Below, one piece after another: positions 2,915 through 48,388 of a DNA stretch of 48,388 nt. The stretch lies in assembly GCA_017619355.1 (NCBI GenBank), contig JAFZSO010000054.1, forward strand, positions 1-48,388, read 5' to 3'. The notes under the pieces are model-generated. The model saw nothing but the letters and a program-made list of their open reading frames with translations, did no database searches and had not been told where the DNA came from. The position numbers were made by a program, and so were the translations under genes. Numbering within the stretch: position 1 is the first letter of the stretch; each line of letters begins with the position of its first letter. The stretch comes from Muribaculaceae bacterium. GTDB lineage: Bacteria; Bacteroidota; Bacteroidia; Bacteroidales; Muribaculaceae.

Positions 2915-3883
2915 TCAGTCAACAGTCCAGTTCTTGCTGTAGGTCGTGTACGATCGTTTGCTCCTGTACAGGTCCTTGTCCACAGGAATGCGCACCTTGT
3001 AGGTCTTGCCCGTTGAGTTGGTCAGTTTGCTCGCGCGTATCCACGGATTGGCCTCACGCAGCTGCGCATAGGTGATGTTGTGTGCCAGCGCCCAGCTGCT
3101 CCAATCAGCCACACTGCCGCTCACATCCACAGTGGTGTAGCTCACAGGCTGATACAGCTGATTCTTGTACAGTCGGTAGCCATAGCGCTTCGGGTCCTCG
3201 AAAAACATCTTGTAGGCGATGATTCTGAACACATAGCGCGTGGTTTCCTTGTTCAGATACAGGTCAAACGAGTTGCTCTGCGACTGCTTCGACAGTTCAC
3301 TCGAAATGGCCGACATACCGGCATTATACGAGGCTGCCACCGTGGGCCAGTGCTTGTAGCGGTTATAGGCCGACTTCAGATACTTGCACGCTGCCACGGT
3401 CGATTTCTCGGGGTCGTAGCGCTCATCTACCTCGCTGTCTACCTGCAGGCCATAGTCCTTCGCAGTGCCAGCAAGCAGTTGCCACATTCCGGCAGCTTTT
3501 GCGCTCGAGTAGGCATTGTAGTCCATCGAACTCTCGGTCACTGCCAGATACAGGAAGTCGAGGGGCACATTCTGCTCCTTGAGTATCTTGGCCAGCACCG
3601 GAAAGTAGCGGTTGGCGCGCTTGATGCACATGAGCGTGGTGGTGTGACCGTAGATTACGCCCGTCAGTTCGCGGTCAAGCCGTTCAAACATGTCCAGGCG
3701 GTCAAAACTCACCTTTTCGCCGCAGAATGTGTAGGTGGTGGGTATATCAGCATTGGCCGACACCGGGAACACGATGTTGCGGCTGCTGGTCGACGATTTC
3801 TTTTGAGCCTGAGCATTGCCCAGAACCAACAGGGAGGCCAGTATGATGGCCATCAGTCTTATATTATTCATTTTCAATGTCAT
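2915..3883 (-). CDS. Secreted lytic transglycosylase (SLT family, MltD-like)
   Basis: This 322-aa protein probably cleaves the MurNAc-GlcNAc bond of peptidoglycan in the periplasm. An N-terminal signal peptide (hydrophobic stretch about residues 9-26, ending AQA-Q) precedes the SLT domain. The family motif ESSMDYNAYSSAKAAGMWQL is clear, with the presumed catalytic glutamate at E117; ASYNAGM follows as the second SLT signature. The C-terminal 70 or so residues (ITYAQLREANPWIRASKL) look like a degenerate LysM-type peptidoglycan-binding module. ATG codons at 3883 and 3871 are both possible; both leave the signal peptide intact. It sits 38 bp after the CHU_C-domain gene and 2 bp before uvrA, so it is mid-operon. 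Confidence 0.9.
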   Translation of the reverse strand: MTLKMNNIRLMAIILASLLVLGNAQAQKKSSTSSRNIVFPVSANADIPTTYTFCGEKVSFDRLDMFERLDRELTGVIYGHTTTLMCIKRANRYFPVLAKILKEQNVPLDFLYLAVTESSMDYNAYSSAKAAGMWQLLAGTAKDYGLQVDSEVDERYDPEKSTVAACKYLKSAYNRYKHWPTVAASYNAGMSAISSELSKQSQSNSFDLYLNKETTRYVFRIIAYKMFFEDPKRYGYRLYKNQLYQPVSYTTVDVSGSVADWSSWALAHNITYAQLREANPWIRASKLTNSTGKTYKVRIPVDKDLYRSKRSYTTYSKNWTVD

Positions 3884-3921
3884 TTATTTGCTTGTTTTCT
3901 GTTTTCTTGCGAAAGGAATTC

Positions 3922-5292
3922 CTATTCCACAACACCTCCACCGTCAGGAACAGTCCCGCCATCGCTATAGCCGCCACCATAAGGATTCTCCTTGTAGCGT
4001 ATGATGTTGATGTCGCCACTCAACTTGTACTTCTTGCCGTCAGAGCCCTTGGCCTGTATCACATAGTAGTACACGCCCGGCTTCACCAGCTTGCCTCCGT
4101 ATGTGCCGTCCCATCCCTGCGAGGGGTCGGTCAACTCAATAATCTTGTTACCCCACATGTTGAATATCCAGCAATGGAATTCCACAATCGACTTGTACGA
4201 TACTTTCCAAACGTCGTTATTGCCATCAGGGGTATCTGGTGTAAACACATTGGGGCAATACAGTTCCGATTCGCCAATGTTCACTGTGTAGGGCTCACTA
4301 TAGGCCTCACAACTGCCGTCGGCGTTCGAGCCCACAAACCGCCAGTAGAAAGTGCCAGCCTCCTCAAAGGTCTGCTCCACCTCGTCCTGGTTCAACCTGA
4401 GCACCAGATTGTTGAAATCGGAATCATACGACATCTGCCACTCTTTGTGCTCCACAGCATCAGTGCAGTACGATGTGAAGGTGATAGTCACCGGAGCCGA
4501 GCCGCCCAGAGTTGCGCCCTGCTCCTGTTTCTCGTTGTCGTTGTTGCGTTCTTGCTGCACAGCAGTGGTATGCACATCCACAGCATTCGTCATATAGGTG
4601 CCGCGGCTCTCTATCTCAACATTTTCGTCCCAGAACTGCAGGAAACGGTCGCCCCACAGGCTGAAGGTCGTGTTGCACAACGGAGCAGGAACCACAATGG
4701 TGCTTTTCAGGCCCGACTGCATCTCCAGCGTGTCGACCTGTATCCATGAGGTCTCATCGTCACTCCACACCAGCGTCTTATAGCTCAGTTTCATCTTGCG
4801 GTCAAGCACCTGGTGCGCACCCGTTATCGTGTAGTAGCCTATGTCCTTTCCCGTGCCGTTCACATGCAGGGTCGCAGTGCCGCAGTCCGATGCATCCTCG
4901 GGTTCAATGCTGTGCAACCGCAGGTAGTATTCCTTATAGTTCACCACCCACACAAAGGTGCGGTCGGTTCCTTCCTCAATAATATAACCCTTATTAGCAG
5001 AGATGTCATTCAGCGTGGTTTCCCGACCGTTGGTTTTGATGTCCGTCAACTCGGTGGCATAACCGCCGCCGCCTTCGCCATACACATACCACACCACTTT
5101 CTGGTCGGTCATGGCGTCATAGTGCATACTCACGCCGTCGGTGTCATACAGCACATATATCTTGTTCAACCCCGTCGATTTCGCCGGAGTTTCCTCATAG
5201 ATGGCCTTACTGTTGCCCGTAAACCTGACCTGCGACTGCGCCAACAGCGCCACACAGGCCATAATAGTTGTGATTATTTGTCGAGTTCTCAT
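3922..5292 (-). CDS. Secreted protein with gliding-motility-associated (CHU_C) C-terminal domain
   Basis: A 456-aa exported protein of unknown function. The reading frame is open to a TTG at 5301, but that TTG lies inside a promoter-like TATCTTTG, so the ATG at 5292 (MRTRQIITTIMACVALLAQ, a signal peptide) is preferred. The middle resembles Ig-like or PKD-like beta sandwiches (for example AGTFYWRFVGSNADGSCEAY). Residues roughly 350-435 match the CHU_C family (YCPNVFTPDTPDGNNDVW, then FNMWGNKIIE, GWDGTYGGKLVKPGVYYYV). In many Bacteroidetes this domain is a type B sorting signal for the type IX secretion system. Unusually, a glycine-rich tail of about 25 residues follows the domain. It is first in the run with the lytic transglycosylase and uvrA. 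The domain call is firm; the biological role is unknown. Confidence 0.8.
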   Translation of the reverse strand: MRTRQIITTIMACVALLAQSQVRFTGNSKAIYEETPAKSTGLNKIYVLYDTDGVSMHYDAMTDQKVVWYVYGEGGGGYATELTDIKTNGRETTLNDISANKGYIIEEGTDRTFVWVVNYKEYYLRLHSIEPEDASDCGTATLHVNGTGKDIGYYTITGAHQVLDRKMKLSYKTLVWSDDETSWIQVDTLEMQSGLKSTIVVPAPLCNTTFSLWGDRFLQFWDENVEIESRGTYMTNAVDVHTTAVQQERNNDNEKQEQGATLGGSAPVTITFTSYCTDAVEHKEWQMSYDSDFNNLVLRLNQDEVEQTFEEAGTFYWRFVGSNADGSCEAYSEPYTVNIGESELYCPNVFTPDTPDGNNDVWKVSYKSIVEFHCWIFNMWGNKIIELTDPSQGWDGTYGGKLVKPGVYYYVIQAKGSDGKKYKLSGDINIIRYKENPYGGGYSDGGTVPDGGGVVE

Positions 5293-41352: not shown

Positions 41353-42213
41353 ATGATAATTTACGGAACAGATTCACATAAAATATTGCAAGGTGACGCA
41401 TTAAATATAATGGAGACCTCCATTGATGATGAATCCATTGACTTGATATTTGCAGATCCGCCTTATAACATCGGTAAAAATTTTGCTGGTTGTTTGGATA
41501 AATGGGACACGGATGACCATTATCTTGATTGGTGCTACCGTTGGCTTGAATTGTGTATCAAGAAATTAAAACCGACAGGCTCTTTTTATGTTATGACATC
41601 AACGCAATTTATGCCCTACTTTGACATTTTTTTAAGAGACAAAGTTCATATTCTATCACGTATTGCTTGGTACTATGATAGTTCTGGTGTACAAGCGAAA
41701 AAGTATTATGGCTCCATGTATGAACCTATTCTATTTTGCGTAAAAGATAAAAACAATTACACTTTTAATGCAGATAGCATTCTTGTTGAAGCTAAAACAG
41801 GTTCTAAAAGAAAGCTTATTGATTATAGGAAAAATCCACCTCAACCATATAACACCCAAAAAGTGCCTGGGAATGTATGGGAATTTGCTCGTGTGAGATA
41901 TAGAATGCCTGAGTATGAGAATCACCCAACACAAAAACCAATTTCCTTATTAGAAAGAATTATTAAGGCCAGTTCTAATAAAAATGATTTAATACTTGAC
42001 CCATTTTCTGGAACATTTACTACTTCTTATGTTGCTCAACTATTTGGAAGGCGTTCTATTGGGATCGAGCTACAAGATGAATATATTAAAATTGGCTTGC
42101 GTAGACTAGGAATTTCAACATCATTTGATGGTCAAGTTTTAGAAAAAGTTAAGAAAACATATAAAAGAAAAGATAAGAGGGAAACCGGTGTTTTAACATT
42201 CGATTTTGTATAA
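41353..42213 (+). CDS. YhdJ-like DNA adenine N6-methyltransferase
   Basis: A 286-aa beta-class adenine methyltransferase. The catalytic motif DPPYNIGKNF (DPPY at 35-38) precedes the AdoMet-binding motif DPFSGTFTT (216-224), the order of the beta class. Close similarity to Escherichia coli YhdJ is evident in WYYDSSGVQAKKYYGSMYEP, VEAKTGSKRKLIDYRKNPPQ and YENHPTQKPISLL. YhdJ methylates the second adenine of ATGCAT, so this enzyme probably shares that site. Unlike YhdJ, which is an orphan, it is followed 1 bp later by a probable restriction nuclease. It is much more AT-rich than the genes to the left. Confidence 0.93.
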   Translation: MIIYGTDSHKILQGDALNIMETSIDDESIDLIFADPPYNIGKNFAGCLDKWDTDDHYLDWCYRWLELCIKKLKPTGSFYVMTSTQFMPYFDIFLRDKVHILSRIAWYYDSSGVQAKKYYGSMYEPILFCVKDKNNYTFNADSILVEAKTGSKRKLIDYRKNPPQPYNTQKVPGNVWEFARVRYRMPEYENHPTQKPISLLERIIKASSNKNDLILDPFSGTFTTSYVAQLFGRRSIGIELQDEYIKIGLRRLGISTSFDGQVLEKVKKTYKRKDKRETGVLTFDFV

Positions 42214-42214
42214 T

Positions 42215-43348
42215 ATGGAACATCATTCGTTTACACCTAAAATTTTGAATATCGTTAATAGCTATTTTCATAATAATGCAAACGCTATTATTGAAAACAG
42301 TTTATTACTTCAATATATAAACAAAAAGACAAAATCTGCTGAACGTGGTTCAAAATCTCGGAGTAGTTTTGCAAATCTTTATGCGATATATGTGCTAATC
42401 GAGGATTATATAAGTAATAATTATCTAAATTCAGATAATTATTCTGAATACGAAGGTGCTTTATTCTCGAACCTTTTAAAAAGAATGCGAGAATTACCTT
42501 TTGGTGCAAAATTACAAAATCACGCACTTAATCATAGAATGAATCAAGAGTTTCAGAGATTCTTTCCTGATTGTACTCTTGTGCCAATTGTGCGAGACTT
42601 GCAGACAAACAGGTATTGGATTAATGAAAACTTGTTGAAAGTGACTGTTGATGGGAGAATTTTTAACATTGCCAACAGTATAATCGACATCATTGATGAG
42701 TATGCCAAAGTAAAGACCGAAAGCTTCAAACATTTTATCAATCAGTGTGAAGAACTTGAAACAATCAATAAGAACGACAAAGATAGAATTAGGTCTTTTG
42801 TTTTGGGATTGCTTGCACCAAATGTCGACGCAAGATTATTTGAGATTGTAAGTTATGCAATCCTAAAAAATTATTATAAAGAGTTCAAAATCTATTGGGG
42901 TTTTTCTCCCAATAAATTAAACGAGGATATTTTGAAATTATACAAAACAGGTAGAACAAATGCCAACGATGGTGGTATAGATTTTGTTATGAAACCTTTA
43001 GGTCGTTTTTTTCAAGTCACAGAAACTCTTGATTTTAAGAAATATTTCCTTGATATTGAGAAAATCGAACGTTATCCAATAACTTTTGTTGTCAAAACAA
43101 AAGAAAATATTGAAGTACTAAGAAAAAAATTGCATGCAGATGCGATTTCAACTTATTCTATAGAATCCGTTGTTTCAAAATATATGGATTGTATCGAAGA
43201 ACTGATTAATATTCCACGTTTAACTGAAATGTATGGAATAATTGAAAAACGAGGAGAGTTATCAGAAATATTAAATGAGATAATTTTACAGAGCAGAGTT
43301 GAGTTTAATTTTGACGAGGAAGATAATGATGAATATGAACTATTGTGA
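42215..43348 (+). CDS. Probable type II restriction endonuclease paired with the ATGCAT methyltransferase
   Basis: A 377-aa protein I cannot assign to a named family with certainty. Position argues for a restriction enzyme: its ATG begins 1 bp after the methyltransferase stop. A possible PD-(D/E)xK-like core is visible: E210 in DARLFEIVSYAILKNYYKEF, D256 in NANDGGIDFVM, and QVTE (267-270) in GRFFQVTETLDF where the second acid/lysine strand is expected. GRTNANDGGID resembles Mrr-type nuclease cores, though a lysine is replaced by threonine. The acidic C-terminus (EEDNDEYELL) is notable. A TTG at 42206 would extend it by three codons; ATG is preferred. If correct, it would cut unmethylated ATGCAT, as NsiI does. 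Confidence 0.7.
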   Translation: MEHHSFTPKILNIVNSYFHNNANAIIENSLLLQYINKKTKSAERGSKSRSSFANLYAIYVLIEDYISNNYLNSDNYSEYEGALFSNLLKRMRELPFGAKLQNHALNHRMNQEFQRFFPDCTLVPIVRDLQTNRYWINENLLKVTVDGRIFNIANSIIDIIDEYAKVKTESFKHFINQCEELETINKNDKDRIRSFVLGLLAPNVDARLFEIVSYAILKNYYKEFKIYWGFSPNKLNEDILKLYKTGRTNANDGGIDFVMKPLGRFFQVTETLDFKKYFLDIEKIERYPITFVVKTKENIEVLRKKLHADAISTYSIESVVSKYMDCIEELINIPRLTEMYGIIEKRGELSEILNEIILQSRVEFNFDEEDNDEYELL

Positions 43349-43392
43349 AGCATTTTCCTAAACCGTTTTAGAAATGGACGTTTTTTGTGCCT

Positions 43393-43423
43393 TTTGTGAG
43401 ATCTGCGTTGAAAGGTACTTTTG
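43393..43423 (+). promoter_or_regulatory. Consensus promoter upstream of the TIR operon leader
   Basis: TTTG at 43393-43396, a 19-bp spacer and TACTTTTG at 43416-43423 give a perfect match. It is 300 bp before the first long gene, so its product would be a long leader or a small RNA/peptide. Confidence 0.6.
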
Positions 43424-43468
43424 TGGCAGTATTAAAACAAAGTTTTTATCGTTTCAGGTTAGAAAGAT

Positions 43469-43519
43469 ATGGTTAAGCTGGTTTATTGGGCGTTGCAATT
43501 TATCATCCGCTTGGGGTGA
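43469..43519 (+). CDS. Possible 16-residue hydrophobic leader peptide
   Basis: A short frame, MVKLVYWALQFIIRLG, begins 45 bp after a perfect promoter. It is basic at both ends with a hydrophobic middle, as in leader peptides or small membrane toxins. There is no clear ribosome-binding sequence and nothing to compare with, so translation is uncertain. Confidence 0.25.
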   Translation: MVKLVYWALQFIIRLG

Positions 43520-43526
43520 TACAAGT

Positions 43527-43689
43527 GAGTGATGCGAGTGCGAAATGGACTCCACTGTTCGTTTTATTACAGTTAACTCTGATATATCCGTAAACCATAA
43601 ACTTTTTTGCACGAATTAATGTAATAATCAGTGAAAAGTTGTATCTTTGTTATACTAATTACGATAGTCTTCAAAGACTCGCATCACTC
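43527..43689. repeat. 13-bp perfect inverted repeats flanking the TIR-operon promoter
   Basis: GAGTGATGCGAGT (43527-43539) and ACTCGCATCACTC (43677-43689) are exact inverse copies with 137 bp between them, which holds the TATCTTTG box. They may be paired operator sites or the ends of a small inserted piece. Confidence 0.65.
43642..43649 (+). promoter_or_regulatory. -7 box TATCTTTG of the TIR two-gene unit
   Basis: A perfect TAnnTTTG box 73 bp before the ATG at 43723, without a good -33 element at the usual distance. A weak -33 fits an operon held low and activated or derepressed. Confidence 0.55.
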
Positions 43690-43722
43690 GAGAAGAGTAC
43701 AATAATAAATAAACACGGTTAT

Positions 43723-44796
43723 ATGGAAAAACAGTTTTACGAAAAACAAAGCAATTTTTCACCTATCCTGAATATTGCAAAAGCATTAATAAAGGAAAGA
43801 GGGCACAAAGACATTTTTGATATTATTACAAATGCAAAGTTTTCCGTAGTTAATACAGACTATGATGGATGGAATGGTGGAATATACGGATATACTGTAT
43901 TTCTAAGTTTGCCTATTAAACAATATACGTCTTTTACATCTGATAGAATAAATGAAATCGAAAAGATTATTGCCGATTCTCTGAATGAAGCAACTAGAGG
44001 AGACGAGCATAATTATTTCAATGTACAAATTAGACCAACGCTTAGTAACGAAGACATCGATTGGAACGCAATAGGCGGATTAAATGGCAAAGTCAGGCTT
44101 AAACAGAATCTTGAAACCATTAGGAGTATCATGACTTCAGTTGCAACAGGAGGTCCTCAAATAAAAGAAGAAGAGACAAGATATAAAAGACTACACAAAC
44201 AAATTGAACAAGATTGCAAGAAGTTAAATCTCATTTACAATAACACATTTCTTAGTTTGTGGGATTGGTATGGGAAGTGGAAGGCTTACTTACCTTCATA
44301 CCAAGAGCGTAGAGTTTTTATTCGAGATCTTTTTGCTCCAACTTTAGCATATTTCGATGAAGATGAGATCAATGACAATATTGATACTTTTATAAAACTA
44401 GATGATTGGGAAAGAATCAAAAGGACAGTAATAAAAATAAAGAGAGATAGCAATAGTGCTAAAGATGAAGAAGATTTCCAAAGAATAGGTCTTTTATGCC
44501 GTGATGTTATTATTTCTTTGGCTCAAGCAGTGTATAATCCGACAAAACATGGAACTGAAGATGAAAAGGGTGTTATCATAGGGAATACCGATGTTGTTAG
44601 AATGATTGGAAATTATATAAGTTCAGAGCTTTCTGGAAGTTCTAATGAAGAATTGAGAGCATACGCAAAAAACACCAATAAACTAGCAAACAGGCTTACA
44701 CACGAGAGAAATTCAACAAAAAAGGATATGCTATTAACTGTTTCGTCCACGATTGCTTTAATTAACTTTATTGGTATAATTGATGAAAAATATTGA
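43723..44796 (+). CDS. Uncharacterised 357-aa partner of a TIR protein (candidate defence sensor)
   Basis: I cannot assign a named family. Three regions can be described. Residues 12-115 are alpha-beta with NTDYDGWNGGIYGYTVFLSL, a motif I associate from memory with proteins linked to TIR effectors. Residues 150-235 are helical and basic/aromatic (LSLWDWYGKWKAYLPSYQER), resembling a helical scaffold. Residues 250-357 form a helical domain (CRDVIISLAQAVYNPTKHG; NKLANRLTHERNSTKKDML) that resembles abortive-infection C-terminal or HEPN-like domains, but the classic RxxxxH ribonuclease motif is not clear (R324-LT-H327). There is no signal peptide or membrane segment. The ATG at 43723 is chosen over an in-frame codon at 43639 that lies within the promoter. 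Stop and TIR start are 2 bp apart. Confidence 0.75.
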   Translation: MEKQFYEKQSNFSPILNIAKALIKERGHKDIFDIITNAKFSVVNTDYDGWNGGIYGYTVFLSLPIKQYTSFTSDRINEIEKIIADSLNEATRGDEHNYFNVQIRPTLSNEDIDWNAIGGLNGKVRLKQNLETIRSIMTSVATGGPQIKEEETRYKRLHKQIEQDCKKLNLIYNNTFLSLWDWYGKWKAYLPSYQERRVFIRDLFAPTLAYFDEDEINDNIDTFIKLDDWERIKRTVIKIKRDSNSAKDEEDFQRIGLLCRDVIISLAQAVYNPTKHGTEDEKGVIIGNTDVVRMIGNYISSELSGSSNEELRAYAKNTNKLANRLTHERNSTKKDMLLTVSSTIALINFIGIIDEKY

Positions 44797-44798
44797 AC

Positions 44799-45572
44799 AT
44801 GAAAAAAGTAATATATACCATTGCTTTAGAATGCAAAGAATTTACTAAAAATAATATTGCCTTCTTTAAACAATTACAAGCCGGTAAGTGGGCCTTCTTT
44901 GTAACAGGTGCGAACAAACAATACAAAACACTTTTACTTTCACTTTGCGTGTCTGCCAAAAACAAGTATCCGATTATCGCAGAGAAATTGAAAGAACATG
45001 TTTATCAATATGATAATAACACCGTAATCCATCAGAGCGCTATAGACGAGTTAATTGACTACATTATTACTATAGAACAAACCTCCTTGGGAGACAGAAA
45101 GTTTTTTGTTAGCCATGCATCCGCAGATGCTTCAATAGTTAATGCTTTTGTAAAAGAGATTTTAATGTTAGGTTGTGGTTTTTCTTCTTCAGATATCTTC
45201 TGTACATTAGACCACACAGCAATTCGCACTGGCGATGATTTCAGAAATGAAATAATCAAAAATATGAAAGGTTGTGATTACATTATGTGTATGATTTCTG
45301 ATAACTATAGGAATAGTGAGGTCTGTCAAAACGAGTTGGGTGCTGCATGGGCATTGGAAAATAAGAGGATTTTGCCTTTTAAGTTCCCAAACATTAAGTT
45401 TACGGAAATTGGCTTTCTCAATGTTATCAAACAAACGGCAGATATTACAGATGACTCAAAGTTAGATGAACTTTATATGGAACTTTGCGAATGCTATAGC
45501 TTGCAACAAGATTGGATTAATTTTAATCAAAGAAAAGCCGATTTTATAAAAGTGGTGAAACATAATCTCTAA
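44799..45572 (+). CDS. TIR-domain protein with novel N-terminal region (candidate NADase effector)
   Basis: A 257-aa cytoplasmic protein. Residues 100-225 are a TIR domain: first strand RKFFVSHASAD (100-110), the BB-loop area RTGDDFRNEI, and NSEVCQNELGAAW with E179 as the expected catalytic glutamate after an S-x-x-C. Bacterial TIR domains of this type use NAD+, either depleting it or making a signalling nucleotide, during phage defence. Residues 1-98 (MKKVIYTIALECKEFTKNNI, WAFFVTGANKQYKTLLLS) form a helical module I do not recognise. Neither SIR2 nor SMODS-type genes are adjacent, so it is not a standard Thoeris or CBASS locus. It is probably translated together with the preceding 357-aa protein. 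Confidence 0.9.
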   Translation: MKKVIYTIALECKEFTKNNIAFFKQLQAGKWAFFVTGANKQYKTLLLSLCVSAKNKYPIIAEKLKEHVYQYDNNTVIHQSAIDELIDYIITIEQTSLGDRKFFVSHASADASIVNAFVKEILMLGCGFSSSDIFCTLDHTAIRTGDDFRNEIIKNMKGCDYIMCMISDNYRNSEVCQNELGAAWALENKRILPFKFPNIKFTEIGFLNVIKQTADITDDSKLDELYMELCECYSLQQDWINFNQRKADFIKVVKHNL

Positions 45573-47150: not shown

Positions 47151-47295
47151 ATTACGTGTCCAAGATGAGGACATTATGTTGTTGCCCTATGTTTTTGACG
47201 GCGGGCAAAAGTTATTGATATTATTGGAATTTAGTGCTTTAGGCTAATGTTCAAATCTCAAATTGTATCTATAAAAACCATTAGATAACAATTAA

Positions 47296-47334
47296 GTCGT
47301 CAAAAAGTCGTCAAAAATTTTGCCTCGTCAAAAA
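47296..47334. repeat. Direct repeats GTCGTCAAAAA upstream of the integrase
   Basis: GTCGTCAAAAA occurs at 47296-47306 and 47307-47317 back to back, with CTCGTCAAAAA at 47324-47334. They overlap the -33 region of the integrase promoter, so they may be autoregulatory or arm-type integrase-binding sites. Confidence 0.65.
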
Positions 47335-47349
47335 TATTTTGTACCTTTG
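47319..47349 (+). promoter_or_regulatory. Integrase promoter
   Basis: TTTG at 47319-47322, a 19-bp spacer and TACCTTTG at 47342-47349 match the consensus; the ATG is 22 bp downstream. Confidence 0.75.
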
Positions 47350-47371
47350 CAACCAACTAATAATAAGGACT

Positions 47372-48388
47372 ATGGCAAATTTTCAATTTCGGCTCTCATC
47401 TAAGAAAAACAAATTAGGTCGTCAAGAATTGCTTATGCGATTCTATCACGGCAAGTTCCAACAACGTGCCAAAACTGGCATCTTCATCGAAGATAAACCA
47501 GTGTATTGGGATGGCTCTGCTATCGTCAATAAGGCCCGTCTTGTCACTGAAGACGTGATTTATCATCGAGAACAAAAGGAACGTCTCGACAATTTGTGCA
47601 GAATCATTAGCGAAGAATGGGAACAGGTTGACTCGTCAAACGTGAGTGCAACGTGGCTTGACGAAATAGTTGACCGATTTAATCACCCAGAAAAGTATGT
47701 GACAGTTGAAGAAAAGGACAATGCTGCTCGCATCCACATGACATCCGTCTTCAAAGACTTTATCAAGAAGCACAAGGTGTCCGAGAACCGCGAGAAACAC
47801 TTGTGGTCGCTATGGCGCGTGTTCCGTCGCTATGAAGTATGGCGAAGCGTGACATTTGAATTTGAGACCTTCTCACATAGCGACCTTGAGGGCTTCCGCT
47901 CTTTCTTGATTACGGAACACGAGTACTGGGTTCGCGACGAGAAATCGGGACGTATGAAATGCAGTAATCGTCGTTACCTCAGGGCCTATAATCAAGTGAA
48001 TGAGGAGTGTCTTGCCATGGGAAAGAAACTGGAGAAGCGATGCCCGGAGCCACGAAGTAAGAATACGCTGAACAATATCCTCGTGCGCCTGAAGACGTAT
48101 TGGATTTGGTGCATGAAGGAAGGCTATACCGACCGAAATCCGTTCAACAAGTTTGCGATTGAAAGTGCTGAATACGGCACTCCATATTACATAACTGTTG
48201 AAGAGCGGCACCAGCTTGAAGACGCTGAACTAGAAGGTATGGTCGCCGTGCAGCGTGACATCTTCGTCTTCCAGTGTTGCATAGGCTGCCGCGTGGGAGA
48301 CCTCTACAAACTGACCTACGCAAACATTGTTGATGGCATTCTCACCTACACCCCTCGTAAGACAAAAGACAACAACCCCGTGCTTGCC
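47372..48388 (+). CDS. Tyrosine recombinase/integrase, truncated by the window end
   Basis: The first 339 residues of a site-specific integrase of the Bacteroidetes mobile-element type; the frame is open to the last base. The N-terminal MANFQFRLSSKKNKLGRQEL begins an arm-DNA-binding domain. A core-binding helical domain follows at about 120-260 (SVFKDFIKKHKVSENREKHL; RLKTYWIWCMKEGYTDRNPF). The catalytic domain starts near residue 272; the first catalytic arginine is R307 in QCCIGCRVGDLYKL, and a TPRKTKDN segment gives the beta-strand lysine. The HxxR and tyrosine motifs lie beyond the window. It probably belongs to a conjugative or other mobile element that extends to the right. Confidence 0.92.
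   Translation, partial: MANFQFRLSSKKNKLGRQELLMRFYHGKFQQRAKTGIFIEDKPVYWDGSAIVNKARLVTEDVIYHREQKERLDNLCRIISEEWEQVDSSNVSATWLDEIVDRFNHPEKYVTVEEKDNAARIHMTSVFKDFIKKHKVSENREKHLWSLWRVFRRYEVWRSVTFEFETFSHSDLEGFRSFLITEHEYWVRDEKSGRMKCSNRRYLRAYNQVNEECLAMGKKLEKRCPEPRSKNTLNNILVRLKTYWIWCMKEGYTDRNPFNKFAIESAEYGTPYYITVEERHQLEDAELEGMVAVQRDIFVFQCCIGCRVGDLYKLTYANIVDGILTYTPRKTKDNNPVLA

Follow-up and report, generated by a model that had tools for sequence, protein, structure and literature searches.

Here we describe an island within a window of 48,388 nucleotides (the whole stretch of DNA that was analysed), in which approximately 4.2 kb carries a restriction-modification (R-M) pair, an abortive-infection-like protein encoded by what we call gene 1, and an SpbK-like NADase candidate with a TIR domain. 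We give about an even chance to a layered reading of this island, as an R-M system, an R-M-linked abortive-infection-like protein, and an SpbK-type NADase brought together in one place. It is the most likely reading and is better supported than a new two-gene system; under it, the last two genes of the island seem to serve as "suicide" layers in reserve, and not as the halves of an established two-part system. The reading starts from the anatomy of the locus, the SpbK-like residues of the TIR protein, the module swaps among relatives of gene 1, and the R-M neighbourhood of the family in Bacteroidota. The features of the island are as follows:

41353-42213, + strand: N6/N4-type DNA methyltransferase of a type II R-M pair, 286 aa (Pfam N6_N4_Mtase, E 1.1e-57; PADLOC MTase_II, 4.7e-137; NCBIfam PRK11524, 9.1e-144, above its cut-off)
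42215-43348, + strand: type II restriction enzyme of the R-M pair, 377 aa from ATG (PADLOC REase_II PDLC03455, E 1.1e-158)
43349-43722, + strand: spacer, 374 bp, with a TAnnTTTG element at 43642
43723-44796, + strand: gene 1, encoding 357 aa, abortive-infection-like, from a family that has no name and is frequently linked to R-M (profile searches, relatives)
43723-44088, + strand: gene 1 N-terminal module, residues 1-122 (its relatives precede TIR in L040 and AbiJ_NTD3-Abi_C in L019)
44089-44388, + strand: gene 1 middle module, residues 123-222 (its relatives precede Abi_C in L045 and, in L046, a Swt1-like HEPN that falls slightly below the cut-off)
44389-44793, + strand: gene 1 C-terminal module, residues 223-357 (conserved H327 and R329; follows AbiJ_NTD3 in Rhizobium leguminosarum, L026)
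44799-45572, + strand: SpbK-like TIR protein, 257 aa (Pfam, PADLOC, solved-structure search)
44799-45092, + strand: TIR protein N-terminal module, 98 aa, without a significant relative found
45102-45458, + strand: TIR domain, with a catalytic-type E179 in NELGAAW (E179 codon 45333-45335)

The preliminary description of this DNA had placed a gene for a 357-aa protein and a TIR gene behind an R-M pair, within an AT-rich island and with 2 bp between them, and this anatomy is real: the open reading frames and coordinates are as given above, the R-M pair upstream is of type II, and the G+C content is 0.329 in gene 1, 0.333 in the TIR gene, and 0.334 and 0.301 in the R-M genes, compared with 0.499 for the window (30-33% in the four genes vs 50%). 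Because eight of eight relatives start at the same residue (M1 is invariant), a longer TTG start of gene 1 is less likely than the ATG start; the restriction enzyme has an alternative TTG start at 42206 in the list of open reading frames. The TAnnTTTG element in the spacer, which we take to be the Bacteroidota -7 motif, is possibly a promoter for gene 1 and the TIR gene, in a sequence where the pattern has 8 occurrences in the 5.6 kb scanned. In a genome of the same genus (G898, locus L090), the left flanking gene, there reduced to a C-terminal remnant, has its 3′ end 860 bp from the right flanking gene, compared with 5.27 kb between the equivalent points of the window, and in this comparison with one genome the spacing agrees with an insertion in the window. 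An open frame at 47285-48388 that runs off the window end matches a phage-integrase SAM-like profile at borderline strength (E 1.1e-4; 23 bits, with the cut-off at 22.3), and may possibly be a mobile-element gene near the island.

For the TIR gene, Pfam returns TIR_2 (E 7.3e-13), and in PADLOC spbK (E 2.3e-19) comes ahead of ThsB (best E 2.5e-6). SpbK is also the sole strong solved relative of the TIR protein (PDB 9phb, E 2.3e-13; next best 0.027), and judged by these sequence comparisons the protein is closest to SpbK. The candidate catalytic E179 of the preliminary description holds up, as the NADase-type residues N178, E179, G181, and W184, in the arrangement N178-E179-x-G181-x-x-W184, align with the SpbK segment, and by spacing they are N191, E192, G194, and W197 in the numbering of PMC12847820. 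According to that source, SpbK is a TIR NADase that is reported both to be required for protection and to suffice for it, filaments and NADase activity are defective in the variants N191R, G194R, and W197A, and E192 is among the NAD+-site residues in a model; residues 1-94 are a bundle of four helices, which docks on YonE, the portal of the phage, and the TIR domain lies at 113-266.

The layout of the TIR protein fits that of SpbK by length, and by analogy with SpbK, which acts alone and matches in size and in layout by length, it would fit the layered reading. The PADLOC spbK match spans residues 63-255 of the TIR protein and positions 114-307 of the 308 in the profile, with residues 1-62 outside the match, so that only residues 63-98 of the N-terminal module are covered, which counts against the layered reading. 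The 98-aa module alone has DUF3276 as its best Pfam match (E 0.013, below cut-off) and no plasmid match at E ≤ 1, and since these first 98 residues alone are without a significant match, a phage-portal trigger for this protein would be an analogy. One Streptococcus prophage match seemed to reach into the module and was rejected, the aligned part before the TIR domain crossing stop codons, so it is not real homology. Separately, a TIR gene at 3193-3945 of a Streptococcus prophage locus (L093) lies immediately before terminase and portal genes. Partners belonging to Thoeris, CBASS, or short Argonaute systems were sought by profile among the four island proteins and none matched, in line with the earlier statement that no SIR2-like ThsA, cyclase, or Argonaute is adjacent, a statement that for the rest of the window comes from reading the list of open reading frames.

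Gene 1 has nothing above cut-off in Pfam or NCBIfam, with no Abi_C or HEPN match among the Pfam profiles, and nothing at E ≤ 1 in PADLOC or PHROGs, so that in these four profile libraries it is indeed a protein with no recognisable named domain, as first described. Solved structures gave weak and implausible matches (best E 0.14 with the single sequence and 0.019 with an 8-row profile), which we rejected. Close relatives, at 45-70% identity, occur in 7 genome contigs, and the family is rare, found in 5/395 genomes of the phylum (E 1e-3), 4/393 of the order (profile, 1e-10), and 3/297 of the taxonomic family, the genome of the window counted in each. More remote members are carried by plasmids of Rhizobium, Bosea, Haliscomenobacter, and several Actinomycetota, and two distant ones were found in viral contigs with a 14-row alignment as the query; single proteins of the family gave zero matches in viral contigs, and phage records gave no match to gene 1. 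Among the family proteins scanned against Pfam, the cut-off was passed solely through a fused partner domain. Published work on the family was not found in the open-licence PMC literature, an absence that says little for a family without a name. Several relatives have surroundings of their own: one in a viral contig (L052, 1861-2871) lies on the strand opposite to genes that read as virion genes, and is possibly phage-borne cargo; a SIR2-like gene (L006, 10332-11438; Pfam SIR2_2, E 7.6e-6, above cut-off) lies two genes downstream of another; and a third (L039, 2580-3613), behind a type II R-M pair of the window's kind, is split over two reading frames, either as a broken gene or through an assembly error.

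Compared across its relatives, the gene 1 family is made of three swappable parts, as the fusions of single modules indicate. The N-terminal module precedes TIR_2 in the genome G164 (L040; hhalign probability 96.4, TIR_2 E 4.7e-13), precedes AbiJ_NTD3-Abi_C in a Sphingobium plasmid (L019; hhalign probability 98.0), and occurs in a Burkholderia plasmid protein (L092) ahead of a part with weak, below-cut-off DUF559 and REase matches; among 80 genomes of G164's class, G164 is the sole match, with the fusions absent from the 79 others. The middle module precedes Abi_C in L045 (hhalign probability 96.5, Abi_C E 2.1e-23) and a Swt1-like HEPN domain in L046 (hhalign probability 93.5, HEPN E 4.7e-6, with 27.3 bits where the cut-off is 27.5). 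That gene 1 modules are joined to known effector domains speaks for the layered reading.

The C-terminal module, which has no Pfam match, was aligned in 25 members (L040, L045, and L046, which are without it, were left out), and H327 is present in 25/25 and R329 in 20/25. Its identity as a HEPN domain is not supported: the hhalign comparison with six Abi_C sequences is not significant (probability 1.2, with one target at E 0.046), though the alignment falls at the expected histidine, and an Rx4-6H motif around H327 is found in one member (L018), with 24/25 lacking it and the window protein having no R at the required distance. These results count against the layered reading.

The neighbourhood that recurs for gene 1 in Bacteroidota is an R-M-type gene. 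Among 17 loci of that phylum (the window, L002-L008, L014, L036-L040, L045, L046, and L050), 10 have such a gene directly upstream on the same strand, at gaps of 14-425 bp, and an eleventh (L036) has HsdR one gene further up, beyond a YgjP-like gene; this speaks for the layered reading. The 10 comprise the window and L039 with the same kind of type II pair, L002, L005, and L037 with type IIG, L003 with BREX, L007 with type II, L008 with type III, L045 with HsdM, and L046 with GmrSD, and the kinds of R-M behind which the family occurs are thus I, II, IIG, III, BREX, and GmrSD. Six loci (L004, L006, L014, L038, L040, and L050) are without upstream R-M. Upstream genes were judged by reading in L006 and L040 and by annotation in L014, and were scanned in the rest. 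Restricted to the 14 loci with all three modules (minus L040, L045, and L046), the count is 8 directly upstream and 1 one gene further. Before counting, we dropped L049 (the L007 locus), L047 and L048 (which repeat L049 and L050 in shorter form), L009 and L013 (L039), L010-L012 (L040, L045, L046), L033-L035 (L036-L038), L066 (part of L038), L058 (the same gene as L054), and L001 and L069 (the window), and further Rhizobium, Clavibacter, and Sphingobium plasmid matches were left out.

This linkage is one-sided, and confined to Bacteroidota in our sample, because it is missing on two other counts, both of which weigh against the layered reading. Among 14 loci of distant relatives from other phyla and viral contigs (L015-L018, L020, L021, L026, and L051-L057), none has a directly upstream R-M gene by annotation or by reading of the open reading frames, hypothetical proteins being unscanned; among them, a DNA methyltransferase gene stands two genes up in L015, a restriction endonuclease gene farther downstream in L021, and a methylase gene downstream in L055, on the opposite strand. 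In nine other genomes of the order that carry the window's type of R-M, a gene 1 relative was found in 0/9 in the surrounding DNA, some contigs ending soon after. Linkage of this sort is also not special to gene 1 among such genes, since controls, small and read as raw counts, show it too. Two of four Abi_C loci have R-M directly upstream (L087, type III-like by BLAST, where the Abi_C gene at 3977-4810 stands immediately behind a type III methyltransferase-like gene; and L088, where Pfam indicates Type ISP), in L089 a methyltransferase-like gene stands two genes up, and L038 is without any; the similar linkage of Abi_C genes is a further point against the layered reading, and it agrees with the published association between HEPN proteins, AbiJ included, and R-M. 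Of four loci of TIR relatives besides the window, one (L043) is type I-like, and for the other three (L041, L042, and L044) no R-M gene was noticed on reading. The L043 gene (6285-7112), an SpbK-like TIR relative, has an HsdM-like gene two genes up, in what appears to be a type I R-M locus.

The absence of a gene 1 relative from the DNA around the same type of R-M in 9/9 other genomes, together with the 860 bp that separate the flank points in the same-genus genome vs 5.27 kb in the window, would suit a chance stacking of unrelated cargo at a variable site, whose common role is no more than defence; however, the family stands repeatedly behind R-M-type genes of several types, and we consider such stacking decidedly unlikely.

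The recurrence of the TIR gene is quite different from that of the R-M-type genes. A TIR profile was run on the open reading frames up to 5 kb on either side of 33 family or module loci (some flanks were shorter, for example the downstream ones of L002, at 727 bp, and L051, at 646 bp), and a scan of this kind is informative only in its negatives, because the three positives were in the profile. A TIR gene adjoins the gene 1 family in 2/33 loci, the window and a Rhodococcus fascians plasmid (L020), and TIR is fused to a gene 1 module in 1/33 (L040, in G164); in the other 30 it was not found by this profile, by which a very divergent TIR could be missed. Gene 1 therefore probably needs no TIR partner. 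That the pair does not recur as a conserved neighbourhood, a result which the preliminary description had itself named as counting against its proposal, weakens the idea of a conserved unit. The unrecognised partner and the candidate catalytic residue of that proposal have stood; the pair is not supported as a conserved unit, and the recurrent neighbour in Bacteroidota is an R-M-type gene.

A functional link between gene 1 and TIR is possible, since the Rhodococcus fascians pair lies 35 bp apart on the same strand and the fusion in G164 joins the N-terminal module straight to TIR_2. These two cases and the 2-bp spacing in the window favour a direct link over the layered reading, and they are what recommends the original proposal of a two-protein sensor-effector system, in the form that gene 1 would sense phage or R-M failure and activate the TIR NADase. 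Although the Rhodococcus pairing is independent, its TIR protein has the TIR domain first and a different C-terminal part, its partner lacks the N-terminal module, the fusion is confined to G164 within the 80 genomes of its class, and 30/33 family loci show no TIR in the flanks scanned; we regard this system as somewhat doubtful, and a new two-gene system, possible as it is, is without backing from conservation. The upstream position of gene 1 and the tight spacing would also match the order of antitoxin and toxin, with gene 1 as an antitoxin-like restraint on the TIR protein that is released on infection. Such a restraint would have nothing to act on in the flanks of those same 30 loci, and the gene 1 modules are themselves joined to effector domains, which makes this last version very improbable.

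In the layered reading, the type II R-M pair would be the first line of defence, and gene 1 the second, as an abortive-infection-like member of a modular family often found behind R-M-type systems in Bacteroidota. Its N-terminal and middle modules may sense infection or failed restriction, and its C-terminal module may be the toxic or signalling part. In the TIR protein, as we infer from SpbK, the N-terminal module would recognise a phage component, upon which the TIR domains would associate, NAD+ would be destroyed, and the infected cell would be stopped. The 2-bp gap suggests that gene 1 and the TIR gene are co-transcribed, presumably as mainly parallel layers. One family behind several unrelated R-M types would imply a common failure signal, if its role is shared. 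A bolder version, which we think unlikely, is that the gene 1 family guards many restriction types (I, II, IIG, III, BREX, and GmrSD) through such a signal and that, in the window and in Rhodococcus, it is coupled to a TIR NADase, so that defeated restriction would lead to loss of NAD+.

Among known systems, Thoeris (ThsB-ThsA) shares with the window a TIR protein, which here has weaker ThsB matches (best E 2.5e-6); it differs in that no ThsA is present among the four island proteins and that the spbK score is far stronger (2.3e-19). The one-gene NADase SpbK, from Bacillus subtilis ICEBs1, is similar to the TIR protein in its C-terminal TIR domain, size (266 aa, compared with 257), N-E-x-G-x-x-W residues, and N-terminal length; the differences are that the window TIR gene stands 2 bp behind gene 1 and behind an R-M pair, and that the spbK profile match leaves out residues 1-62. 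PrrC with EcoprrI and other RM guardians are like gene 1 in being toxin-like accessory genes beside R-M genes, and in PMC3710099 and PMC12707154 PrrC, tied to a type IC system, is the best-described R-M companion, while a wide variety of R-M systems is already reported to have HEPN clades, taken as groups, as neighbours. The guardians' linkage to R-M is shared by gene 1 in Bacteroidota (10/17 and one more) and by 0/14 of the other relatives, and gene 1, which differs from them in having no ABC ATPase or HEPN match in Pfam or NCBIfam, would be a candidate guardian. HEPN proteins, AbiJ among them, are reported as R-M companions in PMC3710099, which speaks for the layered reading; the same source describes for AbiJ proteins a modular pattern with swapped N-terminal parts. 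Gene 1 differs from AbiJ and Abi_C proteins of the HEPN superfamily in the missing Abi_C or HEPN profile match, in the hhalign comparison that is not significant, and in an Rx4-6H motif limited to 1/25 members (L018); it likewise has N-terminal parts swapped among effectors, TIR included, it has R-M neighbours, and its family's modules are common to the AbiJ-type fusion proteins L019, L026, and L045.
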